DNA of 64,000 bases from Asanoa ishikariensis. GTDB lineage: Bacteria > Actinomycetota > Actinomycetes > Mycobacteriales > Micromonosporaceae. The number at the start of each line of letters is the position of its first letter. The stretch's first letter is position 1. The stretch spans positions 186,001-250,000 of the forward strand of contig NZ_FNQB01000003.1 in the NCBI RefSeq assembly GCF_900107455.1, written 5' to 3'. Under the pieces are notes generated by a model, which made no database searches, was not told where the DNA came from, and saw only the letters and a program-made list of their open reading frames with translations. Below, one piece after another: positions 326 through 13,292 of the stretch. Both the position numbers and the translations under genes were made by a program.

Positions 326-3300
326 GTGGAACACGAGCACATCGCGATCGTCGGGATCGGCTGCCGGTTGCCCGGCGACGTCGACTCGCCGGCCGCCCTG
401 TGGCGACTCCTCGCCGACGGCCGCGACGCCGTCGGCCCGTTCCCGGCGGGCCGACCGTCGCCGGGCGCCGCGACGCCACCCGACGGCGGCTGGCTGACCG
501 ACGTGACCGGGTTCGACGCCGACTTCTTCGGCGTCTCCCGCCGCGAGGCCGACGTGCTCGACCCGCAGCACCGGCTGATGCTGGAGGTGGTGTGGGAGGC
601 GTTCGAGCATGCCGGCCTCCCGCCCGACGGGCTGTCCGGCGAGTCGACCGGCGTCTACCTCGGGCTCAGCTACGACGAGTACATGCAGCGCCTGGCCGGT
701 CAGCCGGAGGAGCTGGCCGGCGGGATCCTGACCAACGGGCACTGCGTGGCCGCCGGGCGAATCTCGTACCTGCTCGGCCTGCACGGTCCCGCCGTCACCG
801 TCGACACCGCCTGCTCGTCCGGCCTGGTCGCGGTGCACCAGGCCGCGCAGGCGCTGCGCGACCGGGAGTGTGACCTGGCGGTCGCCGGCGCCGTCAACCT
901 GATCGTCGACGAACGCACGACCCGCGAGTTCACCCGGTTCGGCATGCTCTCCCCGACGGGCCGGTGCCGGGCGTTCGACACGCAAGCCGACGGCTTCGTG
1001 CGCTCCGAGGGCGCCGGCGCGGTCGTCCTCAAGCGGCTCGGCGACGCGCTGCGTGAAGGCGATCGGATCCTGGCCGTGGTACGCGGCTCGGCGGTCAACC
1101 AGGACGGCCGCTCCGACGGACTGAGCGCGCCGTCGGCCGAGGCGCAGGAGCAGGTCTACCGGGCGGCGCTGGTCCGGGCCGGCCTTGACGCCAGCCAGAT
1201 CGGCTACGTCGAGGCGCACGGCACCGGCACCCGGCTCGGCGACCCGACAGAGCTGTCCAGCCTGACCCGGGTGTACGGGGGCCAGGGCCGGGCGGTCGCG
1301 GTCGGCTCGATCAAGACCAACATCGGGCATCTCGAACCGGCCGCCGGCATCGTCGGCCTGATCAAGACCGTGCTGTCGCTGGACTACGGCCTCATCCCGG
1401 GCAACCTGCACTTCACCGGCTGGACCCCGGGCACCGACCCGTCGGCCGCCGGTCTGTTCGTGCCGACCGGCACCACCCGCTGGCCGGACGGCGCCGCCGT
1501 GCGCCGGGCCGCGGTCTCCTCGTTCGGCTTCTCCGGCACCAACGCGCACGTCGTACTCGAAGAGGCGCCGAACCTGCCGTCGGCCCCGGCCGTGCCCCGG
1601 CCGACCGTCGAGCCCGAGGTCGTGGTGATCCCGGCCGGCTCGCGCGGGGCGCTGCCCGCCGCGGCCGCGCGGGTCGCCGACTGGCTCGACGGCGACGGGC
1701 GCGACGTGCCGCTGCGCGACATCGCGCACACGTTCGCGCTGCGCCGCGGCGCCGGGCGTGGTCGGCTCGGCGTCGTCGCCACCGACACCGAGGAGCTTTC
1801 GGACCGGCTGCGGGCGTACGCGGCCGGCCACGTCGACCCGGCCGTGGTCGACGGCGAGGTGCACAGCGGCGTCGTACGCGGCGCGGTCTGGGTGTTCTCC
1901 GGTCAGGGTTCGCAGTGGCCCGGCATGGGCCGCGAGCTGCTGGCCGCCGAGCCGGCCTTCGCCGCCAGCCTGACCCGCACCGACGCGCTGATCGGCACCG
2001 AGGCCGGCTTCTCCGTGCTCGACGTGCTGCGCTCCGGCCAGCCGGTATCCGGCTGCGGCTTCGTACAACCGGTGCTGTTCGCCGTCCAGGTCGCGCTTGC
2101 CGATCTGTGGCGCTCCTACGGCGTCAGCCCCGCCGGCGTGATCGGCCACTCGATGGGCGAGGTCGCGGCCGCGGTCGTGGCCGGCGCCCTCTCACTCGCC
2201 GACGGCGTCGCGGTCATCTGTCGCCGCTCGGCCCTGCTGGAGCGGATCGCCGGCGCCGGCGCGATGGCCAGTGTCGGGCTCGGCCGCTCGCAGGTCGAGG
2301 CGGACATCGCCGCGGCCGGCGCGGGCGAGGTCGTGTCCGTCGCGGTGGTGGCCGCATCGGCCAGCACCGTGATCGCCGGCGACGACGAGTGGGTGCGGCT
2401 GCTGGTCGACTCCTGGGACGCCGAAGGCGTGCCGGCCCGGCTGGTCGCCGTCGACGTCGCTTCACACTCGCCGCAGGTCGACCCGCTGCTCCAGGACCTC
2501 GACGCGGCGCTCAAGGACCTGCGGCCGCGCGAGCCCGTCGTGCCGTTCTACTCCACCGTGCTCGACCCGCGCTCGGAGCAGCCGGCGTTCGACGCCGACT
2601 ACTGGTGCCGCAACCTGCGCCAGCCGGTGCGCTTCTCGGCCGCGGTCTACGCCGCGGCGGCCGACCGGCACCAGGTGTTCCTCGAGGTCTCGCCCCACCC
2701 GGTCGTCGCCGCCGCGGTGCGCGACAACCTGTCGCCCGAGGCCGTCGTGGTTGGCACCCTGCGCCGCGAGGAGCCCGAGCTTCCGACGTTCCGCACGTCG
2801 CTGGCCGCGCTGCACTGCGCGGGCGTTCCGGTCGCCTGGTCCGTCCTGTACGGCGACGCCGAACTCGCCGACCCGCCGGCCATCACCTACGACCGTCGCC
2901 GCCACTGGGTCGACGTCTCACCGGTCGCCCCTGCGGCGGCCCCGGTCGGCCTGCCCGGCGTGCACGCCGAGGTCGCCGGCGACCCGGTGCGGCACACCTG
3001 GGTCGGCGACGCCGGGCTGCTCGCGTGTGCGTTCCTGGCCGACCACCGGGTGCACGACGAGCCGGTGCTGCCGGGTGCGGCGTTCCACGCGCTGGCGCTG
3101 AGCGCCGCCTGCGCGGTGTTCGCCGCGCCGGCAGACGAGGTGTCGGTCGAGAACCTGACGTTCCGCGAGTTGCTGCGGCTCGCGGACCACACCGAGGTCA
3201 GCACCACCGTGACGGTGATCGGGCCGGACCGGGCCGAGTGCGAGATCTTCGCCCGCGGCGCCGACGGCGCGTGGGTCCAGCATGCCGGCGCGGTGCTGCG

Positions 3301-6300
3301 CTCTGGCCGGTCCGCCGCTGCTCCTGACGCGGTGCCGATGTGTGACGTGCCTTCCGACAGCGACGCGCTGTATGCGGCCATGCGGTCGCGCGGCATCGAA
3401 CACGGTCCGGCGTTCGCCGGGCTGAGCGGGCTGACCCGGTCCGCGGACGGTTCCGCCGCGCGGGCCGTCATCGTCCCGCCGCTCGCCGCGGTGGGAGCAC
3501 TCGCGATCCACCCGGTGCTGCTCGACCTGTGTGCGCAGCTCCTGGTCGCGACCGTGCTCGACGTCCCGGGCCAGGGACTGGTGCTGCCGGTCGGCATCGC
3601 CCGCGTCGCCGTGACCGGCGACCTGTCGCAAGCCGCCTTCGCCGAGGCCCGGCTGGACTCGTCGGACGACGAAGGGTTCGCGGGCGACGTCGTGCTCCGC
3701 GACGGCGCCGGCGCCGCCGTGCTGACCGTCGCCGGGCTGCGGTGCGTGCGCCAGCGCGTGCCCGCCTCGGCGGCCGACCGACCGGAGTCCTGGCTGATCG
3801 AGTCGCACTGGGTGCCGGCACCACCGGTGTCCGGTGCGGTGGTCGGCCGGGTGCTGCTGCTCGGCGAGGGCGGCGGCGCCGTGCTGCCGGTCGCGGCCGC
3901 GCTGCGGTCCCGCGGTGCCGCGGCCGACGTGGTGGACGTGCCGCTCGACGAGCCGGTGCACGGCCTGCTAGGCGGTGTGCTGCCGGGCGTGGTCGCGCTG
4001 GTCTGCGGCTCCGCCGTGGCCGCCGGCGACGCCGCGCTCGACCGGACCCGACGGGTGGTCGCCGTGGCCCAGGCGCTGTGCACCGAAGCGGTGCCGCCCC
4101 GGCTGGTGCTGGTCACCGGGGGAGCCCTGGACGAGGCGGCGCTGCGCGGCGTCGTCCGGGTGCTCGCGATCGAACACCCGGAGCTGCGGGCCACGCTGGT
4201 CGACTCGACCGACGCGGACCTGCTCGCCGCGGAGCTGCTGGCCGACGGTGCGGACGACGAGGTCCGGCACCGGGCGGGGGAGCGGTCGGTGGCCCGGCTG
4301 GCGTACGCGCCGGTCCCCGAGACGTCCTTCGTGGACGTCCGCTGCGGCGTCGACGGATTCCGGCTGCGTGCCGGCCGCCTGGGCGACCTGTCTGGGCTGG
4401 AGCTGGCGGCCTGCCACCGGCGCAGGCCCGGGCCGGGCGAGGTGGAGATCCAGGTGACCGCGGCCGGGGTCAACTTCCGCGACGTGCTCACCGTCCTCGG
4501 CCTGCTGGGCCATCCAGAGTCCTCAGCCTCCGGGACGCTGGCGCGTCCCGAAGCCTTCCGGTCACCGGGCGACGGCCACGACGTCCGCTACCGCATCGGC
4601 TTCGAGTGCGCGGGCGTGGTCAGCGCCGTCGGCTCCGGTGTGCCGCTCGCCGTCGGCGAGACGGTGCTCGCGGTCGACCTGCGTGGCGGCGCGTTCGGCT
4701 CCTTCCTGACGGTGCCGGCGACCGCGGTGGCCCGGATGCCGGGCGGGCTCGATCCGGTGGTCGCGGCCGGACAGCTCACCGGCTACCTGACCGCCTGGTA
4801 CGCGCTGCGACACGTCGCCGGGGTGCGCTCCGGCGAGCGGGTGCTGATCCACAGCGGCACCGGCGGCACCGGCCTCGCCGCGATCGCGGTGGCCCGCCGG
4901 CTCGGCGCGACCGTGCTGGCCACGGCGGGCACGCCGGAGAAGCGGGCCCGGCTGCGCGAGCTCGGCATCGCGACGGTGATGGACTCGCGATCGCTGGACT
5001 TCGCGGCCGAGACGCTGGCCGCGACCGGCGGCGAGGGCGTCGACGTCGTGCTCAACTCCCTCGCCGGACCGGCGATCCGGGCCGGCCTGTCGACCCTGCG
5101 GCCGTTCGGCCGGTTCGTGGAGCTCGGCGTGCGGGACATCCTCGCCGACCGTGCCATCGGCCTGGCGCCGCTGCGGCACAACATCACCTTCAGCACGGTC
5201 GACCTGATCGAGCTGCAGAACCGGCGCCCGGACGTGTTCGCGACGGTGCTCCGGGAGGTGCTGACCGGGCTCGCCGACGGATCCCTGCCGCCGTTGCCCG
5301 TGCGGTCGTACCCGCTGACCTCGGCGACCGACGCGCTGCGGACGATGGCCGCGGCGGCGCACCAGGGCAAGCTGGTCCTGACCGTGCCGGGCTCCGGGAC
5401 GGTGCGGGCGGCGCGCCCCGACGGGCCGCCGGTGCGGCCGGACGGGTCGTACATCATCACCGGCGGCCTGACCGGCGTCGGTCTGGCAACGGCGTCCTGG
5501 CTCGCGTCCCGCGGCGCCGGTCACCTGGTGCTCAACGGCCGGCGGGCGCCCTCCACGGAAGCGGCGGCCACGATCGCTTCGCTGCGGGCGGCCGGCACCC
5601 GGGTCACGGTGATCCGTGGTGACATCGCCTCGCCGGGCACCGCGGACGCGCTGGTGACGGCGGCGACCGCGTTCAACCGACCGCTGCGCGGCGTGCTGCA
5701 CGCGGCGATGGTGCTCGCCGACGCGGCGCTGCTCACGGTGGCGGACGACCAGTTCGACACGGTCTGGCGGCCGAAGGTGGTCGGCGCCCGGGCGCTGCAC
5801 ACCGCGGTCACCGGGCACCGACCTGACTGGTTCGTGGTGTTCTCCTCCATGGCCTCGCTGATCGGCAACGCCGGCCAGACGGTGTACGCGGCGGCGAACT
5901 CGTGGCTCGACGGCTTCGCCGAATGGCGCGCGGCCCAGGGCCTGCCGACGCTGGCGGTCAACTGGGGCCCCTGGGGTGAGACGGGCGCGGCGACCGACTT
6001 CGCGGCGCGCGGCTACACCACGATCGGCACGTCCGACGGCTTCGACGCACTGTCCACATTGCTGACCCACGACCGCGTGCGCACGGGGGTCATCCCGGGT
6101 CCGCCGTCGACCTGGGTGCCGGCACCGGACGCGCCGTTCTTCGGCTCGCTCCTATCACCAGTGGAGGCCGCGACCGCCGCGGAACCGACCACCGTGGACG
6201 TCCGGGCCGACCTGGCCGCGACACCCGCGGGCCTGGCCCGGCGGACGGCACTGGAGTCGTACGTCGGCGGCCACGTCCAGGCGGTCATGCGGCTGGGCGA

Positions 6301-6496
6301 CAGCGTCCTCGACCCGCAGGTGCCGTTGCGCGCGCTGGGCTTCGACTCGCTGCTGGCGATGGAGCTCCGGGCGCGCCTGGAGGCCGGGCTGGGCGTCAAG
6401 CTGGCCGGCAACTTCGTCTGGCAGCATCCGACCCTGGCCGCGCTGGCCGAGGGTCTGGCCGGGCACATGGACCTGGCGCTGGAGGCCGACGAGTAG
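326..6496 (+). CDS. Iterative type I polyketide synthase, mycocerosic-acid-synthase-like (KS-AT-DH-ER-KR-ACP)
   Basis: This 2056-residue protein is one complete fully reducing module. KS spans about residues 5-430 with Cys163 (DTACSS), His298 (EAHGTGT) and His335 (NIGH). AT has Ser609 (GHSMGE) and a later VASHSPQVDP segment. DH has His907 (DHRVHDEPVLPG) and Asp1067. ER has the GTGGTG nucleotide loop near 1510. KR has TGGLTGVG near 1710 and Tyr1854. ACP has Ser2008 in LGFDSL. Order, length and the AT signature resemble mycobacterial mycocerosic acid synthase and its Pks5-like relatives, which elongate acyl chains with methylmalonyl-CoA; that specificity is inference. There is no thioesterase, so another enzyme must take the product. 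The GTG start follows AGAGGA. The DH motif has Asp where Gly is usual (HxxxG). Confidence 0.9.
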   Translation: MEHEHIAIVGIGCRLPGDVDSPAALWRLLADGRDAVGPFPAGRPSPGAATPPDGGWLTDVTGFDADFFGVSRREADVLDPQHRLMLEVVWEAFEHAGLPPDGLSGESTGVYLGLSYDEYMQRLAGQPEELAGGILTNGHCVAAGRISYLLGLHGPAVTVDTACSSGLVAVHQAAQALRDRECDLAVAGAVNLIVDERTTREFTRFGMLSPTGRCRAFDTQADGFVRSEGAGAVVLKRLGDALREGDRILAVVRGSAVNQDGRSDGLSAPSAEAQEQVYRAALVRAGLDASQIGYVEAHGTGTRLGDPTELSSLTRVYGGQGRAVAVGSIKTNIGHLEPAAGIVGLIKTVLSLDYGLIPGNLHFTGWTPGTDPSAAGLFVPTGTTRWPDGAAVRRAAVSSFGFSGTNAHVVLEEAPNLPSAPAVPRPTVEPEVVVIPAGSRGALPAAAARVADWLDGDGRDVPLRDIAHTFALRRGAGRGRLGVVATDTEELSDRLRAYAAGHVDPAVVDGEVHSGVVRGAVWVFSGQGSQWPGMGRELLAAEPAFAASLTRTDALIGTEAGFSVLDVLRSGQPVSGCGFVQPVLFAVQVALADLWRSYGVSPAGVIGHSMGEVAAAVVAGALSLADGVAVICRRSALLERIAGAGAMASVGLGRSQVEADIAAAGAGEVVSVAVVAASASTVIAGDDEWVRLLVDSWDAEGVPARLVAVDVASHSPQVDPLLQDLDAALKDLRPREPVVPFYSTVLDPRSEQPAFDADYWCRNLRQPVRFSAAVYAAAADRHQVFLEVSPHPVVAAAVRDNLSPEAVVVGTLRREEPELPTFRTSLAALHCAGVPVAWSVLYGDAELADPPAITYDRRRHWVDVSPVAPAAAPVGLPGVHAEVAGDPVRHTWVGDAGLLACAFLADHRVHDEPVLPGAAFHALALSAACAVFAAPADEVSVENLTFRELLRLADHTEVSTTVTVIGPDRAECEIFARGADGAWVQHAGAVLRSGRSAAAPDAVPMCDVPSDSDALYAAMRSRGIEHGPAFAGLSGLTRSADGSAARAVIVPPLAAVGALAIHPVLLDLCAQLLVATVLDVPGQGLVLPVGIARVAVTGDLSQAAFAEARLDSSDDEGFAGDVVLRDGAGAAVLTVAGLRCVRQRVPASAADRPESWLIESHWVPAPPVSGAVVGRVLLLGEGGGAVLPVAAALRSRGAAADVVDVPLDEPVHGLLGGVLPGVVALVCGSAVAAGDAALDRTRRVVAVAQALCTEAVPPRLVLVTGGALDEAALRGVVRVLAIEHPELRATLVDSTDADLLAAELLADGADDEVRHRAGERSVARLAYAPVPETSFVDVRCGVDGFRLRAGRLGDLSGLELAACHRRRPGPGEVEIQVTAAGVNFRDVLTVLGLLGHPESSASGTLARPEAFRSPGDGHDVRYRIGFECAGVVSAVGSGVPLAVGETVLAVDLRGGAFGSFLTVPATAVARMPGGLDPVVAAGQLTGYLTAWYALRHVAGVRSGERVLIHSGTGGTGLAAIAVARRLGATVLATAGTPEKRARLRELGIATVMDSRSLDFAAETLAATGGEGVDVVLNSLAGPAIRAGLSTLRPFGRFVELGVRDILADRAIGLAPLRHNITFSTVDLIELQNRRPDVFATVLREVLTGLADGSLPPLPVRSYPLTSATDALRTMAAAAHQGKLVLTVPGSGTVRAARPDGPPVRPDGSYIITGGLTGVGLATASWLASRGAGHLVLNGRRAPSTEAAATIASLRAAGTRVTVIRGDIASPGTADALVTAATAFNRPLRGVLHAAMVLADAALLTVADDQFDTVWRPKVVGARALHTAVTGHRPDWFVVFSSMASLIGNAGQTVYAAANSWLDGFAEWRAAQGLPTLAVNWGPWGETGAATDFAARGYTTIGTSDGFDALSTLLTHDRVRTGVIPGPPSTWVPAPDAPFFGSLLSPVEAATAAEPTTVDVRADLAATPAGLARRTALESYVGGHVQAVMRLGDSVLDPQVPLRALGFDSLLAMELRARLEAGLGVKLAGNFVWQHPTLAALAEGLAGHMDLALEADE

Positions 6497-6514
6497 TCGT
6501 CCACCACCAGATCT

Positions 6515-6548
6515 GCCGCGGCCGGGGCAACGAAGCCCCGGCCGCGGC
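6515..6548 (+). terminator. Hairpin terminator after the polyketide synthase
   Basis: A perfect 14-bp GC-rich stem (6515-6528 with 6535-6548) closes over a 6-nt AACGAA loop, 18 bp after the stop codon. No long T tract follows, which is common for actinobacterial terminators. Confidence 0.8.
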
Positions 6549-6568
6549 TTCGTCTTGGGCAAATGCCG

Positions 6569-6597
6569 TTGCCGCCCGAGCGAAGTGGACCTACTCT
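6569..6597 (+). promoter_or_regulatory. Candidate vegetative promoter of the leader/tRNA-like/rtcB unit
   Basis: TTGCCG (6569-6574) and TACTCT (6592-6597) are separated by 17 bp, a good fit to a housekeeping-sigma promoter. It lies just after the polyketide synthase terminator and would start transcription near 6604, about 30 nt ahead of the leader ORF. Assignment is by eye only. Confidence 0.45.
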
Positions 6598-6634
6598 GTG
6601 CCTCACAGCACGATCGAGGCAGGAGATCCCCGAG

Positions 6635-6760
6635 ATGACGTGGCAGCCCACAGCGCAAGCGACACGGTGTCCGTTGGCGTGCGCCACCGCGGGCCTGCCC
6701 TTCGCCGGGCGACCCGCCGCTGGCAATCGGCTATGCCCCGCGGGACAACGGTTGAGCTGA
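6635..6760 (+). CDS. Candidate 41-codon leader peptide upstream of rtcB
   Basis: An ATG at 6635 stands 8 nt after a strong AGGAGA ribosome site and opens 41 codons ending in TGA at 6758-6760. The peptide has three cysteines, several prolines and no recognisable domain. About 76 percent of third codon positions are G or C, lower than in neighbouring genes, so it may be a leader peptide or not coding at all. Nested self-complementary segments lie inside it (for example GCGGG...CCCGC enclosing GCCC...GGGC near 6693-6721). An intrinsic terminator follows 22 nt after its stop, then a tRNA-like element and rtcB. This order is what an attenuation leader would look like. An alternative GTG-started frame (6598-6822) runs through the terminator and lacks a good ribosome site. 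Confidence 0.35.
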   Translation: MTWQPTAQATRCPLACATAGLPFAGRPAAGNRLCPAGQRLS

Positions 6761-6782
6761 GCACGCCTCGCGCGCTCACGCC

Positions 6783-6818
6783 GCCGCCCACCCGCATCCT
6801 GGGTAGGGCGGCCTTTTT
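6783..6818 (+). terminator. Intrinsic terminator between leader ORF and tRNA-like element
   Basis: GCCGCCC (6783-6789) pairs with GGGCGGC (6806-6812), with an inner ACCC/GGGT extension, and is followed at once by CTTTTT (6813-6818). A true T tract is rare in this GC-rich window, so this is the clearest Rho-independent terminator here. It ends only 2 nt before the tRNA-like element, so readthrough would be required for any upstream promoter to reach rtcB. Confidence 0.8.
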
Positions 6819-6820
6819 CT

Positions 6821-6904
6821 GACCTGATGGCGTCGCTGGTGCGGCGGTCGGTCCGCAAAACCGAATCCCGGAAACGGGCAAAGGGTTCAATTCCCTGTCA
6901 GGTC
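6821..6904 (+). tRNA. tRNA-like element with long variable arm (anticodon loop CCGCAAA)
   Basis: A 7-bp perfect acceptor stem joins 6821-6827 (GACCTGA) with 6898-6904 (TCAGGTC). The T arm is canonical: loop TTCAATT closed by AGGG/CCCT, with the fifth pair an A-G mismatch. A 5-bp anticodon stem (6848-6852 with 6860-6864) closes a 7-nt loop CCGCAAA, whose middle triplet is GCA (Cys). A 4-bp variable-arm hairpin with a GAAA tetraloop (6867-6878) makes it class II. Departures from a working tRNA are the missing U33 (C instead), a poorly formed D arm, extra bases before the anticodon stem, and no encoded CCA. It stands 29 nt before rtcB on the same strand, so it may be a regulatory tRNA mimic or a ligase substrate rather than a decoding tRNA. 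Confidence 0.6.
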
Positions 6905-6933
6905 TCGATCACACCATCCACTGGGGAGAGACG

Positions 6934-8133
6934 ATGAGTTACACGCTGCTGCCGGGCACCCGGGCGCCGGTCCGGGTCTGGACCGATCCCGCGACGATCG
7001 AGGCCGACGCTGCCCGGCAGCTCCGCAACATCGGCACGTTGCCGTGGGTCGACGGTGTCGCCGTGATGCCCGACGTGCACTTTGGCAAGGGTGCGACGGT
7101 CGGCTCGGTCATCGCGATGCGGCAGGCGCTCGCGCCGGCCGCGGTCGGTGTCGACATCGGTTGCGGCATGTCCGCGGTGCGCACCAACCTCAGCGACGCT
7201 GACCTGCCCGACGACCTCGGGCCGCTGCGCCGGGCGATCGAGTCCGCCATCCCGGTCGGCTTCAACGCGCACGACGAGGCGGTCGACCCGCACCGGATCC
7301 ACGGCCTGCCGACCGCCGGCTGGGCCGAGTTCTGGAAGGGTTTCGGCGCGCTAACCGCGGACGTCGGCGGCCTGGAGCCGCGGGCGTCGCGGCAGCTCGG
7401 TTCGCTCGGCGGCGGCAACCACTTCATCGAGGTCTGCGTCGAGCAGGGCGGCCCGGACGCGGGGCGGGTCTGGTTGATGCTGCACTCGGGTTCGCGCAAC
7501 ATCGGCAAGGAGCTCGCGGAGCGGCACATCCGGGTCGCCCGTGGGCTGCCGCACAACGCCGACCTGCCGGACCGGGACCTCGCGGTGTTCGTGTCCGGCA
7601 CGCCGGAGATGGACGCGTACCGCCGGGACCTGAGCTGGGCGCAGCAGTACGCGGCGCGCAACCGGGCCATCATGCTCGCGCTGCTGTGCCGGGTGCTGCG
7701 GGAGGCGGTCGCGCACGTCCGCTACGACGAGCCGATCTCGTGCCACCACAACTACGTGGCCGAGGAGACGTACGGAGGCGTCGACCTGCTGGTCACCCGC
7801 AAGGGCGCGATCCGGGCCGGCCGGGGTGACCTGGGCATCATCCCGGGTTCGATGGGCACGGGCTCGTACATCGTGCGCGGGCTGGGCAACGACGACGCCT
7901 ACAACTCGGCGTCGCACGGCGCGGGCCGGCGGATGTCGCGCACGAAGGCGAAGAAGACGTTCACGGTGGACGACCTGGCCGAGCAGACGGCCGGCGTCGA
8001 GTGCCGCAAGGACGCCGGCGTCGTCGACGAGATTCCCGGCGCGTACAAGGACCTCGGTGCGGTCATCGCCGAACAGGCCGACCTGGTCGAGGTCGTGGCC
8101 CATCTCAAGCAGGTGGTCTGCGTAAAGGGCTGA
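6934..8133 (+). CDS. rtcB: RNA-splicing ligase RtcB (3'-phosphate RNA ligase)
   Basis: The 399-residue protein carries the RtcB signatures in order: PDVHFGKG near 50, VDIGCGM with metal-binding Cys77, GGGNHF near 160, LHSGSRNIG near 190, CHHNY near 270 and SHGAGRRMSR with the guanylylated His at 328. RtcB joins RNA 3'-phosphate or 2',3'-cyclic phosphate ends to 5'-OH ends using GTP and Mn2+. In bacteria its known role is repair of tRNAs and rRNA cut by stress nucleases. The ATG follows GGGGAGAG. No archease, RtcA or RtcR gene is adjacent; instead a tRNA-like element, a terminator and a small ORF lie directly upstream, suggesting a different mode of control. Confidence 0.95.
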   Translation: MSYTLLPGTRAPVRVWTDPATIEADAARQLRNIGTLPWVDGVAVMPDVHFGKGATVGSVIAMRQALAPAAVGVDIGCGMSAVRTNLSDADLPDDLGPLRRAIESAIPVGFNAHDEAVDPHRIHGLPTAGWAEFWKGFGALTADVGGLEPRASRQLGSLGGGNHFIEVCVEQGGPDAGRVWLMLHSGSRNIGKELAERHIRVARGLPHNADLPDRDLAVFVSGTPEMDAYRRDLSWAQQYAARNRAIMLALLCRVLREAVAHVRYDEPISCHHNYVAEETYGGVDLLVTRKGAIRAGRGDLGIIPGSMGTGSYIVRGLGNDDAYNSASHGAGRRMSRTKAKKTFTVDDLAEQTAGVECRKDAGVVDEIPGAYKDLGAVIAEQADLVEVVAHLKQVVCVKG

Positions 8134-8189
8134 ACCGCATGGGCCAGCCCGGCGCGCGATGCGGGCGGGGCGTCGGCGATGCTGTGGGT

Positions 8190-9029
8190 GTGGAGTACGT
8201 GTCCAGAGTGCCGCGACCGCCGCTGGACGGGTTGATCGACGACCTCTACTACCTGGAGGGCGCGCCGCCGTACGCCCGGCTGACCCTGCCGGCGAGTCCG
8301 GCGGCGCTGCTCATCGTCAACCTCGGGGCCCCGTTCCGCATCCGCGCCGGCAGCGACATCAAGGCGGCCGAGTACGCCGACGGCTGCGTGATCACCCCGC
8401 CCACCCGCGCGTTCGAGTTCGGCTACCCACCCCGAACCCGGTCCGTCGGCGTGCACCTCAAGCCGTGGGGGCTGGGGCCGTTCCTGCCGATGCCCGCGGC
8501 CGAGCTGTGCGACCGGCCGGTGACGTTGGAGCAGGTGTGGGGCCGGCCCGCCACTGCTGAGTTGCGAGACCGGTTGGCCACGGCGGACGGACCGCACGAG
8601 ATGCTGACGGTGCTCGAGGAGGAGCTGAAGCGACGGCTGTGCGAGACCGCCGGCCTGGGGCTGGTCCGCCATACGAGCAGCGTCATCGCGGCGACCGGCG
8701 GGGCGGTGGCGATCGGCGACCTGAGAGTGGCAGCCGGTGTCAGCAGCACTCATCTGGCACAGCGGTTCAAGGAGCTCATCGGTGTCACGCCGAAGCGGCT
8801 GGCCCGCACCTACCGCTTCGCCTCCACCGTGCTCGCGATCGACCCCGCCGGACCGACCGACTGGGGCGACCTCGCCGGTGGCGCGGGCTACTTCGACCAG
8901 GCCCACTTCGGCCACGAGTTCCAGGCGTTCACCGGGCTCACGCCGACCCGGTACGTCGAAGTCCGGCGGCGGTTCCTGCGCGAACATCCCGGCCACGTGC
9001 TGGACGGCTGGCCGCTGCCGGCCGATTGA
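8190..9029 (+). CDS. AraC family transcriptional regulator
   Basis: About 279 residues. The C-terminal half has the two helix-turn-helix units of AraC/XylS proteins, with AAGVSSTHLAQRFKELIGVTPKRLAR and, later, GAGYFDQAHFGHEFQAFTGLTP, the usual second-helix signature. The N-terminal part begins with RVPRPPLDGLIDDLYYLEG, a segment typical of AraC proteins with a DUF6597-like sensory domain. I chose GTG 8190 because homologous proteins usually begin just before YVSRVPRPP; an in-frame ATG at 8139 is possible. It follows rtcB on the same strand. Its target may be the adjacent RibD-C reductase gene, which is inference. Confidence 0.8.
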   Translation: MEYVSRVPRPPLDGLIDDLYYLEGAPPYARLTLPASPAALLIVNLGAPFRIRAGSDIKAAEYADGCVITPPTRAFEFGYPPRTRSVGVHLKPWGLGPFLPMPAAELCDRPVTLEQVWGRPATAELRDRLATADGPHEMLTVLEEELKRRLCETAGLGLVRHTSSVIAATGGAVAIGDLRVAAGVSSTHLAQRFKELIGVTPKRLARTYRFASTVLAIDPAGPTDWGDLAGGAGYFDQAHFGHEFQAFTGLTPTRYVEVRRRFLREHPGHVLDGWPLPAD

Positions 9030-9095
9030 ATTCTTACAAGAGCGACAGCTCACGCCACGCTAATTTGAGGGCACCCCAACGCAGAGGAGCGCCCC

Positions 9096-9677
9096 GTGGG
9101 CAAGGTGGTCATGTACAGCTCGGTGTCGGTGGACGGCTTCATCGCGGACGAGAAGGACCAACCCGGACCGCTGTTCGACTGGTTGACCAGCGGTGACGTC
9201 CCGTTGGACGAGAGCGGCGTGTTGAAGGTGTCGCAGACCTCCTACGACTACACCCGGCCGTACTGGGACCAGATCGGGGTGACGATCGCCGGCCGCCACG
9301 TCTTCGATATGACGGACGGCTGGGACGGGAAGCCGCCGAGCGGGGTCGACCACGTGGTCGTCGTGACGCACCGGCCGGCGCCCGAGGGCTGGGACCATGC
9401 GGCGCCGTTTCACTTCGTCGACGGCGTCGAGGCGGCCGTGGCCAAGGCGCAGGAGCTCGCGGGTGACCGCTTGGTCGAGGTCGCCGCCGGCGACGTCGGT
9501 GGCCAGGCGCTGGCCGCAGGTCTGGTCGACGAGGTGCGCATGGACGTCGTGCCCGTCGTGCTCGGGTCCGGCAAGCGCTACTTCGGGTCGGTCGACGCGC
9601 AGCACCTGTTGGAGGATCCGGACGTGATGATTCAGGGCAACCGGGTGCTTCACCTGCGCTATCAGGTGCGCCGCTGA
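9096..9677 (+). CDS. RibD C-terminal / dihydrofolate-reductase-like protein
   Basis: The 193-residue protein starts VMYSSVSVDGFIAD, the strand and loop that open the dihydrofolate-reductase-like RibD C-terminal fold. It ends with VVPVVLGSGKRYFG, the usual second signature. This family holds riboflavin-pathway reductases but also many stand-alone NADPH reductases of unknown substrate; there are no riboflavin genes nearby. The GTG start at 9096 is preceded by GAGGAG. It is one of three such paralogues in the window (with 42066-42641 and 43054-43656). Confidence 0.85.
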   Translation: MGKVVMYSSVSVDGFIADEKDQPGPLFDWLTSGDVPLDESGVLKVSQTSYDYTRPYWDQIGVTIAGRHVFDMTDGWDGKPPSGVDHVVVVTHRPAPEGWDHAAPFHFVDGVEAAVAKAQELAGDRLVEVAAGDVGGQALAAGLVDEVRMDVVPVVLGSGKRYFGSVDAQHLLEDPDVMIQGNRVLHLRYQVRR

Positions 9678-9773
9678 CCGATCCTTGGCGCCGGCTCGCC
9701 TAAAAAGGCTATCCGCTTCGTTAACATGGCGACGACAATAGGAATTGCCGTCGCCATAGTTGCGGGAGCCTGC

Positions 9774-11318
9774 GTGGGATACGACAACGATGGCCGGTTG
9801 CCACTGATCTACGTGCGCGGGTTCGCCGGATCGGGCATCGACAAAGCCGTCGAGGATCCGTTCTACGGATTCAACGAAGGATCCGTTCACGTTCGTGTCG
9901 ACGGATTCGGGGATCCACAGTTCTACCAGTTCGAAAGCCCCATGCTCCGGCTGATGATCGACGAGAACTACCGGCTGCTCGTGCACGGTGACCAGCGCGC
10001 CTTTCTCCAGCACAGCGGTGACGGTGAGGTCGACGCGAACACGCTGTGGATCCACCGTTTCTACGACGTGTCGGCCTCGACGTTCTCCAAACGACCGACC
10101 GAGTTCAGCATCGAGAACGCGGCGGCGGACCTTTTCGACCTCATCGAGCTCGTGCGCCGCAAGACCGGAGCGCCGAAGGTGTTCCTCGTGGCCCATTCGA
10201 TGGGTGGGTTGATCTGCCGATCGGTCATCCAGCGACACATTCCGCTGTTGTCCGGGAAGGCTACCGACTACATCGCACGATTGTTCACGTACGGCACGCC
10301 ACACGGCGGCATCGAATTCGACGTCGGTTTCGGGCTGATCGAAAAGCTTCGAGACCTGACCGGGATCAGCGGCGCCGACATCTTCGGTCCGGGCCGGATG
10401 TACGAGTACCTGACCCCGGCCCTGCCCGGGGCGCCGAGCGAGGACGATTTCGACGCGCAGGTCATGCCGCCGGACGGGTTTCCCGTCGACGAGGTCTTCT
10501 GCCTGGTCGGCACCAACCCGGCGGACTATCAGGTGGCGCTGGGACTCTCCTCGAAGCTGGTGGGAGCGCGAAGCGACGGACTCGTCCAGGTCGACAACGC
10601 CTACGTCGAGGGTGCCAACCGCGCGATGGTCCACCGCAGCCACAGTGGAACGTTCGGCATCGTCAACTCGGAGGAGGGCTACCAGAACCTGCGGCGCTTC
10701 CTCTTCGGCGACCTCATGGTCCGGGTCGACCTCGTCGGCCTGTCACTGCCGGACGACCCGGACGACGACGTGGTGTGGCAACTGGAGACCCAGCTGTCCA
10801 TCCGGGGCCTGCCCGTCCTCATGCACACGCAGACCGCGGCCCAGTACTGTCCGGTTCAGCTCGAACGAACCTCGGCCCAGGACTCGACGGATGCGCCCTT
10901 CCCCCTGGTGACCACCTTCCTGTCGTCGAAGCTGGCACCGCGGCGGGACGGCCAGCCGCGGGCCGCGCGGCATTTCCTGAAGCTGCGACTCATCTCGCTG
11001 CGGGTGCGCGACGGCGTGTTCGACTTCCTCGACCACATGGAGCAGGCCGAGGACTGGCAGGACCTCCTGTTGGTCGACATCGCACCGGACCCGGCGGGCA
11101 CCTCGTCCGCGCCGCTGCGGTGCTGGGCCACCTGGAACAGGACGGTGACAAAGGCGATCCGGTCGTGGGAGCCGCAACCGTCCGATCTCCTCGAGGACGC
11201 GAACACGACCGCGGGTGTCTGGCGAGGAGAGATCCAGATGCCCCCGGAGGTCCGCGAGCTGCTGGGGGAGAACGCCCGGCTGTCGATCACCGTCACGCCC
11301 CGCTCGGCGGCCGGCTGA
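9774..11318 (+). CDS. Alpha/beta hydrolase, esterase/lipase type
   Basis: About 514 residues. LIYVRGFAGSG opens the fold and VFLVAHSMGGLICRS supplies the nucleophile elbow (Ser in HSMGG); TYGTPHGG follows as in lipase-like serine esterases. A His in MVHRSHSGTF could be the catalytic base. The C-terminal 200 residues after about 330 form a separate region rich in beta strands that I do not recognise. I start at GTG 9774 because GGGAG lies 6 nt upstream; an in-frame ATG at 9726 lacks a ribosome site and would add a short hydrophobic segment. No signal peptide is present from 9774, so it is probably cytoplasmic. Confidence 0.75.
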   Translation: MGYDNDGRLPLIYVRGFAGSGIDKAVEDPFYGFNEGSVHVRVDGFGDPQFYQFESPMLRLMIDENYRLLVHGDQRAFLQHSGDGEVDANTLWIHRFYDVSASTFSKRPTEFSIENAAADLFDLIELVRRKTGAPKVFLVAHSMGGLICRSVIQRHIPLLSGKATDYIARLFTYGTPHGGIEFDVGFGLIEKLRDLTGISGADIFGPGRMYEYLTPALPGAPSEDDFDAQVMPPDGFPVDEVFCLVGTNPADYQVALGLSSKLVGARSDGLVQVDNAYVEGANRAMVHRSHSGTFGIVNSEEGYQNLRRFLFGDLMVRVDLVGLSLPDDPDDDVVWQLETQLSIRGLPVLMHTQTAAQYCPVQLERTSAQDSTDAPFPLVTTFLSSKLAPRRDGQPRAARHFLKLRLISLRVRDGVFDFLDHMEQAEDWQDLLLVDIAPDPAGTSSAPLRCWATWNRTVTKAIRSWEPQPSDLLEDANTTAGVWRGEIQMPPEVRELLGENARLSITVTPRSAAG

Positions 11319-11339
11319 CGCCGGTAGGGTCAACGTCCC

Positions 11340-12128
11340 ATGGAGCACCATGACGAGACCCTGGGTGCGTACGTAGGACGGGTGCAGGCTGACCCGAAAG
11401 CGATCGCGGTCATCGTCGTGGGATCGGTAGCTCGTGGCACGGAACGACCCGACTCGGACGTCGACGTGTATCTGGTCGTACCCGATGACGTCTTCGACTC
11501 GGCCGTTGCCGCCAATCGGGTGATCTTCGTCGAGCACTCCGACTCGACATATCCGGGCGGCTATGTCGACGTCAAGCTCGCCACCGTCGCGTTTCTGAAT
11601 GCCGCCGCCGAGCGCGGGGACGATCCGGTGCGCGCGTCGTTCGAAGGTGCCCGGGTGGCCTGGGTCCGGGACGGTTACGACCTCGCCGCGCAGGTCGCCG
11701 CGATCCCCGTGCTTCCCTCGACGGTCTGGGAAAGCCGAGCGGCATCCTTCATCTCGCAGGTCCGGTTGCACGGCACCGACTTCCTGCGGGAAGCGATCGC
11801 GTTGGACAACACCTTCCTGCTGCACCACGCCGCCGTACACACCGTAGGCGCCGGTGGGCGAGCCCTGCTCGCGCTGAATCGCAGGCTCTATCGCGGGCCG
11901 AAGGACCTCGACGCCACGCTCGCTACCCTCGACCGCATACCCGACGGATACGGCGACCTCGCTCGGCGGCTCATCACCCGGCCCAGCCGAGAAAGCGCCG
12001 ACGCGTACGTGCGGGCGTTGGAGGCCTTCCATCGCTGGCCGGTGGATCGCGTGGCGAGTGACTCGATCTTCATTCGGGACAACGAGCTCGGCTGGCTCAC
12101 CGGGATACTGCCGCCCGAGTTCCGCTGA
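11340..12128 (+). CDS. Nucleotidyltransferase-domain protein (Pol-beta/MNT fold)
   Basis: The 262-residue protein has the nucleotidyltransferase signature IVVGSVARGTERPDSDVDVYL: a GS motif followed by the DxD metal pair. A helical C-terminal region follows, with a layout like aminoglycoside or toxin-antitoxin MNT-type nucleotidyltransferases. It starts 21 bp after the lipase-like gene and may be cotranscribed. No HEPN partner gene is adjacent, so a MNT-HEPN toxin-antitoxin role is not supported. The substrate is unknown. Confidence 0.8.
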   Translation: MEHHDETLGAYVGRVQADPKAIAVIVVGSVARGTERPDSDVDVYLVVPDDVFDSAVAANRVIFVEHSDSTYPGGYVDVKLATVAFLNAAAERGDDPVRASFEGARVAWVRDGYDLAAQVAAIPVLPSTVWESRAASFISQVRLHGTDFLREAIALDNTFLLHHAAVHTVGAGGRALLALNRRLYRGPKDLDATLATLDRIPDGYGDLARRLITRPSRESADAYVRALEAFHRWPVDRVASDSIFIRDNELGWLTGILPPEFR

Positions 12129-12134
12129 CCGGGG

Positions 12135-13292
12135 CTAACTTCGGCGCGCGCGCCGGTTGACCAGCACCAGCACCACGACGAGCGCCGCCGCCAGCACCAA
12201 CGCCAGGACGATCGCGATCAGGACCCAGGAGCCACCGGAGCCCTCCCGCTGTTCGCTGCCCGCGTCCGCCGGCGCCGCGCTGGCCGAGGGTGCCGGGGGA
12301 GCGCCCAACGGGTTCGCCTCGACGGCAGGCACCTCGCGGGTCAGCGCGGCGAGCACGTCGACCGAGCCGAAGCCGTACTCCGGGTCCCGGCCCTTCGCGC
12401 CCCGGTCGCGGGCCGTGCTGACCACGCGGTTGACCACGTTCGCGGCGTCGAGGCTCGGATAGCGGGCCCGGACCAGGGCGACGACGCCCGAGACGATCGC
12501 CGCGGAGGCGCTGGTGCCTTCGTACACGGCGTAGTCGCCCTCTGCGACGCCGGGCCGGGTCGGCGCGACGATGGCCTCGCCGGGTGCGGAGACGGCCATC
12601 GCCTGACCGACGATCGTGCCGTCCCAGAGGGCACCGGACCGGGTCGCGCCGCCGACGGCGATGACGCCGGGGATGCTGGCGGGCATCGGGATCTCAAGAT
12701 AGGTGCTGCCGGTGTTGCCGGTCGCGGCGACGACCACGACGTCCTTGCTGAGCGCGTATTCGACCGCTTCGACGACCTCGGGATCGTCGCGTTCCGTGCC
12801 GAGCGACACGTTGATGACGTCGGCTCCGTTGTCGACGGCCCACCGGATGCCCGCCGGCGCCTCGCGCAGCCCGGACGGCCCGAGACTTACCGGCAGGATC
12901 TTCGCCTCGGGGGCGATCCCGAGAGCGTGCCGCTCGTCGCCACCCCGCGCGGCGATGAGGCCGGCCATCGCGGTGCCGTGCCCGGCCGTGCGATCCGGAT
13001 CGGTCCGTCCATCGTCAACGGAGCCGGGGCCGAAGCCCTTGCCGGGCAGCACCTGGCCCTTGAGATCGGGATGGGAGGCCTGCACGCCGCTGTCGATCAC
13101 CGCGACCACGACACCCTTGCCTTTCGACAGCCGGTGCGCCTGCGGGATCTTGAGCGCGTCGAGATGCCATTGGAGGCTCCGGACGGTGTCGGAGGCGCGG
13201 GCCGGCGCGGGTGCCAGCAGCGGGCCGAGGCCGGTCGCGGCGACCAGCACGAGCACGGAGCAGGTCGAGCGGACGACCTGTCGGAAACCCAT
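12135..13292 (-). CDS. Subtilisin-family serine protease, mycosin (MycP)-like
   Basis: The 385-residue protein has a signal peptide (residues about 1-33), an S8 protease domain with catalytic Asp67 (VIDSGV), His105 (GHGTAMAG) and Ser261 (GTSASA), a Pro/Ala-rich linker and a C-terminal membrane helix ending in RRARRS. This layout is that of mycosins, membrane-anchored proteases of type VII secretion systems. No EccB/C/D/E or WXG100 genes are in the window, so this is an orphan mycosin-like gene. It is convergent with the nucleotidyltransferase gene. Confidence 0.85.
   Translation of the reverse strand: MGFRQVVRSTCSVLVLVAATGLGPLLAPAPARASDTVRSLQWHLDALKIPQAHRLSKGKGVVVAVIDSGVQASHPDLKGQVLPGKGFGPGSVDDGRTDPDRTAGHGTAMAGLIAARGGDERHALGIAPEAKILPVSLGPSGLREAPAGIRWAVDNGADVINVSLGTERDDPEVVEAVEYALSKDVVVVAATGNTGSTYLEIPMPASIPGVIAVGGATRSGALWDGTIVGQAMAVSAPGEAIVAPTRPGVAEGDYAVYEGTSASAAIVSGVVALVRARYPSLDAANVVNRVVSTARDRGAKGRDPEYGFGSVDVLAALTREVPAVEANPLGAPPAPSASAAPADAGSEQREGSGGSWVLIAIVLALVLAAALVVVLVLVNRRARRS

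Follow-up and report, generated by a model that had tools for sequence, protein, structure and literature searches.

We consider a small gene group in the 64-kb window (the whole stretch of 64,000 nucleotides analysed here), where a leader, a tRNA gene and the RNA ligase gene rtcB follow one another on the forward strand. The tRNA gene is real and supported by covariation, and it looks like a second tRNA-Cys rather than a tRNA mimic. It is preceded by a WhiB7-type promoter, a short ORF and a terminator, and this layout is shared with tRNA arrays and other rtcB genes of related genomes. We read the group as a WhiB7-type stress operon, attenuated by its upstream ORF, that would supply a spare tRNA-Cys together with RtcB upon a translation stall. 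We give this reading a probability of about 0.6; the alternatives weighed below (a decoy, a leftover, a selenocysteine tRNA) are less likely.

The tRNA gene and its relatives

The element spans 6821..6905 on the forward strand. ARAGORN calls a tRNA-Cys(GCA) at 6821-6906, the sole tRNA in the window, and the only gathering-level Rfam match in the window is to tRNA-Sec (RF01852, 6820-6905, 52.1 bits, E 1.3e-7, cut-off 47). Minimum-free-energy (MFE) folding yields a cloverleaf whose variable hairpin has 4 bp; at -38.8 kcal/mol (z -3.37), this fold is equalled by none of 200 shuffles. In this predicted fold the acceptor and T stems have 8 and 4 bp (an 8/4 branch), the D stem has 6 bp with a 4-nt loop, and the anticodon stem has 5 bp; the flanks of the latter (G27/A45) are unpaired, and the stem stays at that length. 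A bulged A51a, a mark of the selC* tRNA-Cys genes discussed below, can be drawn by eye in the T stem of the window and of the same-genus genome G004; in another genome of the genus, G005, the T stem is a plain 4 bp. The anticodon GCA lies at 6855-6857 in the loop CCGCAAA, with C33 at 6854, and U73 at 6905 is the first base past the acceptor stem. The initial annotation, made from the sequence alone, had described the C at position 33 and the TTCAATT T loop as they are. It gave the acceptor stem 7 bp, however, where there are 8, the last being a U-G pair that covaries in relatives, and the D arm that it called irregular is regular. Its observation that no CCA is encoded stands and says little, because many housekeeping tRNA genes of this genome, the ordinary tRNA-Cys included, lack CCA as well. 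Since the RNA ends at U73, the short gap to rtcB is 28 nt rather than 29.

Do the stems hold in other genomes? A BLAST search of 101 genomes (its own and those of relatives) gives near full-length matches in three genomes of the same genus (G003, G004, G005), and pieces of 25-36 nt in G058, G073, G100 and, as a second match, in its own genome. Folded singly, the three closest homologues are weaker (z -2.10, -1.80 and -1.61), and the MFE structure of one of them (L131) is not a cloverleaf; the structural case therefore rests on covariation. Across the four genus sequences 98.1% of the pair cells are standard and 6 of the 27 pairs have changed on both sides, values as high being reached by 0 of 500 shuffles. 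A covariance check had been proposed with the initial annotation, and with these two-sided changes it supports the element.

A covariance model built on the four genus sequences (R1) was run over 300 Micromonosporaceae genomes and matches, at E 1e-6, in 30 of them, 26 outside the genus. These 26 relatives are mostly Cys genes of tRNA arrays: another tRNA lies nearby in 25 of the 26 loci, most of which are dense arrays. The array-type tRNA-Cys of genome G118 is solitary, with no other tRNA within 1.5 kb (L205), and none in 11.5 kb by ARAGORN and no rtcB by tblastn (L239). For the alignment, the four genus members were joined by 25 of the 26 outside loci, L221 being omitted as cut by a contig end; a second copy in G159 has no locus in the set. 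The anticodon GCA, U73 and the 6-bp D stem with its 4-nt loop are present in all 29 aligned sequences, and at position 33 there are 24 U, 4 C and 1 G. Among the 26 distinct sequences 97.9% of the cells are paired and 20 of the 27 pairs have changed on both sides, in an alignment that is fitted to the model; no shuffle reaches these values and no slide approaches them. The eighth acceptor pair is standard in all 26 (UG 14, CG 6, GC 4, UA 2). By these shared sequence features, the pairing and the covariation of the eighth pair, the element belongs to the tRNA-Cys family of the tRNA arrays. Its long variable hairpin is peculiar to one genus, L205 and L223-L225 having something like it in part; counted between the anticodon and T stems, the four genus sequences have 17-20 nt and the remaining 25 have 5-15 nt.

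When R1 was applied to a phylum sample outside the family, 8 of 395 genomes gave a match, and all eight genes are Ser (3) or Sec (5) by ARAGORN, so that no 8/4 tRNA-Cys was found in this sample; since R1 is built on only four sequences, it may miss distant members. The leader and tRNA have no match in phages, and three 48-nt matches in Sinorhizobium plasmids (E 5e-3) are taken as chance; on these searches a phage or plasmid origin was rejected.

The conserved, rtcB-linked tRNA-like gene of the initial annotation is thus real, with covariation support. The accompanying claim that ordinary decoding is unlikely finds no support. GCA and U73 are described as the main identity elements for CysRS (PMC7609411, seen in part), and both are kept in 29 of 29 aligned relatives, with a normal U33 in 24. 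The gene is oddly built yet, judging from its sequence, apparently usable; its RNA is also a possible substrate of RtcB. The same counts speak against a tRNA-like RNA that sits beside rtcB as a decoy, a reading suggested by that position, by the unusual body with C33 in the window, L127 and L131, and by a proposal for YrlA in the available text of PMC7790460. The relatives sit among arrays of other isotypes, which better fits a decoding set, and we regard the decoy as unlikely.

The Rfam assignment raises a different alternative, a tRNA-Sec variant through which selenocysteine would enter proteins at Cys codons; sense-codon variants of tRNA-Sec are known (PMC7609411, in the part consulted). 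It has against it U73 and GCA, a separate UCA tRNA-Sec in the same genome (L001, 78.6 bits), and the shortness of the variable region (5-15 nt) in all 25 aligned sequences from other genera; we consider it very improbable. A plain tRNA-Sec identity is rejected on account of the anticodon, which is GCA and not UCA, of U73 and of the separate selC.

Within the genus, the window's own genome (G000) also has an ordinary tRNA-Cys with U33 (L171) and, near C2:1.893-1.897 Mb, a tRNA array without Cys (L148). The element's counterpart lies directly before rtcB in G003 and G004; in G005 it closes a tRNA array that lies on a different contig, and its position 33 is U. By ARAGORN, the arrays of G004, G002 and G003 and a nine-tRNA array of G001 all lack Cys. 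Since the program misses some such genes, weight is placed on R1, which gives no match in G001 and G002 and exactly one in each of the other four, G000, G003, G004 and G005. One genome thus has the gene at the end of its array and three have it before rtcB, no genome has it in both places, and two lack it; two genus genomes keep the leader before rtcB with no such tRNA. The six arrays of the genus (L147, L148, L255-L258) all end near a convergent tRNA-Arg(UCU), which may be their shared insertion place.

This distribution could mean that the gene is a chance leftover, a reduced tRNA array that is co-transcribed with rtcB and of no present use. In favour of this, the array-type tRNA-Cys is missing from two genomes of the genus, the window's genome has its ordinary tRNA-Cys, and the element has C33. 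Compensatory changes keep the pairing in the three rtcB-linked copies, however, and the promoter, leader and terminator are conserved along with the tRNA; we think a leftover improbable.

A leader shared by tRNA arrays and rtcB

We turn to the sequence before the tRNA, all features being on the forward strand. The ORF directly upstream (326-6496) encodes a single-module polyketide synthase (PKS) and is closed by a terminator hairpin at 6515..6548 (detected stem 15) with a T-rich tail at 6549-6556, which sets the operon apart from it. The promoter at 6559..6597 consists of an AT-rich block gcaaatg (6559-6565), a -35 TTGCCG (6569-6574) and a -10 TACTCT (6592-6597), the 17-nt spacer fitting the pattern TKGMNN-N16-19-TANNNT. 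WblC promoters are reported to have the same build, with the block GAAAWY (PMC7157823, in part). In the window this block is weak, with A/T at 4 of its 7 positions and no exact GAAAWY; relatives come closer, with for example gaaatc and gaaaaag. The leader ORF at 6635..6760 has 41 codons, three of them for Cys (MTWQPTAQATRCPLACATAGLPFAGRPAAGNRLCPAGQRLS). The leader terminator at 6783..6818 is made of a hairpin (6783-6812, -22.4 kcal/mol) and a T run (6814-6818), and ends 2 nt before the tRNA. The initial annotation had named a sensor or a regulatory leader among the possible roles of the tRNA; since the terminator precedes the tRNA and none is seen in the gap between tRNA and rtcB, the tRNA is not the switch of this leader.

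The gene behind the tRNA, rtcB (6934..8133), encodes a 399-aa protein of the RNA ligase RtcB family (Pfam PF01139, E 1.7e-121) that can be aligned to RtcB chains of solved structure (1uc2 at E 2.5e-29); NCBIfam RtcB models match it only below their curated cut-offs. By Pfam the six proteins at 326-13292 are the PKS, RtcB, an AraC-type, a hydrolase-type, a nucleotidyltransferase and a subtilase protein. The comparison with proteobacterial Y-RNA operons, also drawn in the initial annotation, finds no footing here, as there is no Rsr or RtcA among these six and no gathering-level Y RNA in Rfam. A similar PKS gene end is seen by eye before rtcB in L128, L129 and L131.

Is the leader found elsewhere? 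A detector was used for a Shine-Dalgarno ORF that ends 10-30 nt before a terminator hairpin. It reports 19 of 20 tRNA arrays (2/60 shuffles), the one missed (L243) having been measured from the wrong first tRNA, and 22 of 24 Micromonospora rtcB genes (0/72 shuffles). The count for the rtcB genes of the window's genus is 4/6 against 2/18 shuffles, of which 3/6 are true, the detection in L129 being the PKS end with its terminator; other rtcB genes of the family group, one MAG included, give 4/13 against 1/39. Nothing is found before rtcB in genus g34 (0/7; shuffles 0/21), and rtcB outside the family stays at 5/68 against 7/204 shuffles. L242 is omitted from these counts because its upstream sequence is too short, and L244 and L245 are identical copies in one genome. 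A short Shine-Dalgarno ORF, M(R)xLAKPAxxRRG-like in most, lies some 150-230 nt before rtcB in the g34 loci L134, L135 and L137-L140, without the terminator or tRNA found at other loci; it is maybe a shorter form of the leader.

The promoter pattern stands before 39 of 46 leaders (L129, L165 and L245 dropped) and in 26 of 2820 random stretches, and a 7-nt block with at least 5 A/T, 3 nt upstream of the -35, accompanies 28 of these 39 promoters against 6 of the 26 random ones. A composite scan for promoter, ORF and terminator on both strands of 1.55 Mb of fetched loci gives 51 hits, 48 of them distinct by peptide, and all 48 lie 171-406 nt upstream of a same-strand tRNA (36) or rtcB (12). The scanned loci had been chosen for rtcB, tRNA arrays or WhiB genes, with some overlap in content, so the hits show specificity within these loci rather than a genome-wide frequency. 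The window leader is the sole hit in its 64 kb. The scan recovers the leader of L243 and 4 of the 6 rtcB leaders of the genus (window, L128, L129, L131; missed are L127, which has the tRNA, and L130), and its hits include rtcB loci of Rhizocola (L020) and of a Pseudonocardiaceae bacterium (L022).

The leader is not the only tie between rtcB and tRNA genes. ARAGORN finds a same-strand tRNA at most 300 nt upstream of rtcB in 5 of 11 Micromonosporaceae loci of a first set, in 9 of 37 further loci of the family and in 3 of 69 loci outside it; the 37 were chosen among the matches listed of 161 matching genomes and favour the best of these. A tRNA that ARAGORN missed is present in four more of these 37 loci (L127 and L131, and, by an Rfam scan of 13 of the 37, L144 and L160). 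The number of tRNAs at rtcB forms a graded series: some loci have none, others a single one (Arg in L141, Glu in L142), L153 has ten and L145 has 22. In the array of the window's own genome an HNH endonuclease gene (Pfam, L148 only) sits between Gly and Gln; a similar ORF is seen by eye at this position in most other arrays, and in Micromonospora rtcB occupies the HNH place. Outside the family, rtcB lies amid many tRNA genes in Kribbella (L063, L064, L076); in L064 an ORF and terminator before the first tRNA are seen by eye and were not found by the composite scan. The arrays of genus g32 (L237, L241, L244, L246, L254) have an extra ORF of about 250-340 codons in a 1.2-1.8 kb gap between the Pro and the Ser/Lys tRNAs.

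What may the leader sense, and what may its tRNAs withstand?

The next question is what such a leader might respond to. Of the 189 residues in the genus's six rtcB leaders, 12 are Cys; these leaders were read by eye and include L127 and L130, found by no detector. The background is 0.93% (3974 residues of window proteins), and 0 of 300 nucleotide shuffles are as high. The 18 array leaders have 31 Cys in 717 residues (3/300 shuffles as high) and the 22 Micromonospora leaders 20 in 865. Trp is found at 37/717 in array leaders and 49/865 in Micromonospora against a background of 1.33%, the shuffle control being for Cys alone, and part of this excess comes from UGG codons near the ORF end that are able to pair with the 5' arm of the terminator. 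Pairing between the ORF end and the terminator arm has a mean z of -1.25 over the 46 leaders (60 shuffles per leader), with 27 below -1 and the strongest values in arrays; in the window leader the alternative pairing is no better than in shuffles (z +0.35). Coding constraint on the peptide is weak, with a synonymous share of 0.344 against 0.249 expected in arrays and 0.283 against 0.268 in Micromonospora; the sequence pairs behind these values are not independent of one another.

The anticodon loops point to a second property. Position 33 is C in 44 of 369 distinct array tRNAs and 10 of 47 rtcB-linked tRNAs against 0 of 31 housekeeping tRNAs, the control being the window's genome only. C33 would be unusual for an elongator tRNA. 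Among array genes for Val-GAC, 11 of 12 distinct ones have C33 (e.g. L148 8250-8327) and the ordinary Val-GAC of the window's genome has U33; the rtcB-linked Gly-GCC genes have C33 in 9 of 9. Phage tRNAs are argued to escape nucleases through changes in the anticodon loop (PMC10264068), and tRNA-Cys is a reported target of the M. tuberculosis protein VapC4 (PMC10945364), both sources being available in part. By analogy, the array and rtcB-linked tRNAs could plausibly be a nuclease-proof reserve.

Combining these observations, the stress operon may be pictured as follows. The WhiB7-type promoter would give a leader RNA that carries the 41-codon ORF. In the unstressed cell, ribosomes would complete the ORF, the terminator at 6783-6818 would form and transcription would end. 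When ribosomes stall or falter in the leader, with Cys-tRNA cleaved or uncharged or with translation slowed by a drug, RNA polymerase would read through, and the spare tRNA-Cys and RtcB would be made. The spare tRNA would be processed, receive its CCA, be charged by CysRS through GCA and U73, and decode Cys codons; its altered body and C33 may let it escape the nuclease that had destroyed its normal counterpart, and RtcB would reseal the broken tRNAs. The same kind of leader would drive whole tRNA arrays in the relatives. As to the regulator, the genome has six WhiB proteins, one of them with an AT hook as in WhiB7 (L266), and a protein of this kind may control the promoter.

The direction of attenuation is borrowed from whiB7/wblC, where attenuation by an upstream ORF is described (PMC11550727). 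Parallels for the other steps are reported as well: six tRNA genes of S. coelicolor are under WblC (PMC7157823), whiB7 of M. abscessus rises when VapC5 cleaves tRNA (PMC10287673), and in Anabaena one repressor controls both rtcB and a silent bank of trn genes (PMC10272220); we draw on parts of each of these papers. A wider proposal, which we hold tentatively and with more doubt than belief, is a two-armed actinobacterial response to tRNA damage, in which stalling at Cys and Trp codons of the leader, brought about by a cleaved or missing tRNA, would induce a nuclease-resistant bank of structurally altered replacement tRNAs and a ligase to mend the broken tRNAs, through the shared WhiB7-type leader. 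The window would be its smallest form, with one tRNA and rtcB.

Known parallels and what the operon may mean

Every component of the operon has a known parallel. The selC* tRNA-Cys genes were reportedly described by Mukai et al. 2017. As PMC7609411 presents them in the text available, they are alike in the anticodon (GCA, or there also UCA), U73, the 8/4 branch, the tRNA-Sec-like body and, as far as the genus members go, the long variable arm, but occur in Firmicutes, Thermodesulfobacteria, Nitrospirae and Proteobacteria, in part accompanied by selB* and cysS*, and have a lengthened anticodon stem; the element here comes from an actinobacterium, is followed by rtcB, keeps 5 bp in its anticodon stem and has array relatives whose variable region is short. 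The Anabaena trn operon and rtcB, under TrcR, likewise form a stress-induced bank of extra tRNAs with rtcB under common control. There, to judge from part of PMC10272220, a trans repressor acts on separate loci, whereas here a WhiB7-type promoter, leader ORF and terminator lie in cis and rtcB is often inside the tRNA cluster. Mycobacterial tRNA arrays are also dense, with many isotypes and an HNH endonuclease gene, and the consulted text of PMC5966550 mentions no rtcB, leader or promoter, in contrast to Micromonospora with rtcB in the HNH place; the window itself, with its one tRNA, is not a dense array, and its relatives sit in such arrays. The whiB7/wblC attenuator and WblC regulon share the promoter build, the short ORF, the Rho-independent terminator and, in S. 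coelicolor, the six tRNA genes (PMC7157823, PMC11550727, both in part), but that attenuator is described on whiB7 and not, as here, on effector genes (tRNAs, rtcB) with Cys- and Trp-rich leader peptides. In the Salmonella rsr-yrlBA-rtcBA operon rtcB adjoins a tRNA-like RNA gene as well (PMC7790460, in part); in the window no rsr, Y RNA or rtcA is found beside rtcB, and the RNA bears the marks of a true tRNA. The literature searched, which covers few subscription papers, gave no report of a leader shared by tRNA arrays and rtcB, of a linkage of rtcB with arrays or of an actinobacterial 8/4 tRNA-Cys, and Anabaena is the only case there of tRNA arrays together with RtcB.

The actinobacterial 8/4 tRNA-Cys family adds to a form known from other phyla (PMC7609411, in part) and offers a natural series from short to long variable arm. 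One kind of leader before both tRNA arrays and rtcB links the two and indicates when they would act, namely when translation stalls. This bears on the role of the actinobacterial tRNA arrays and on what RtcB mends in bacteria, and the shared leader suggests that tRNA damage is met with one joint response of "replace and repair".
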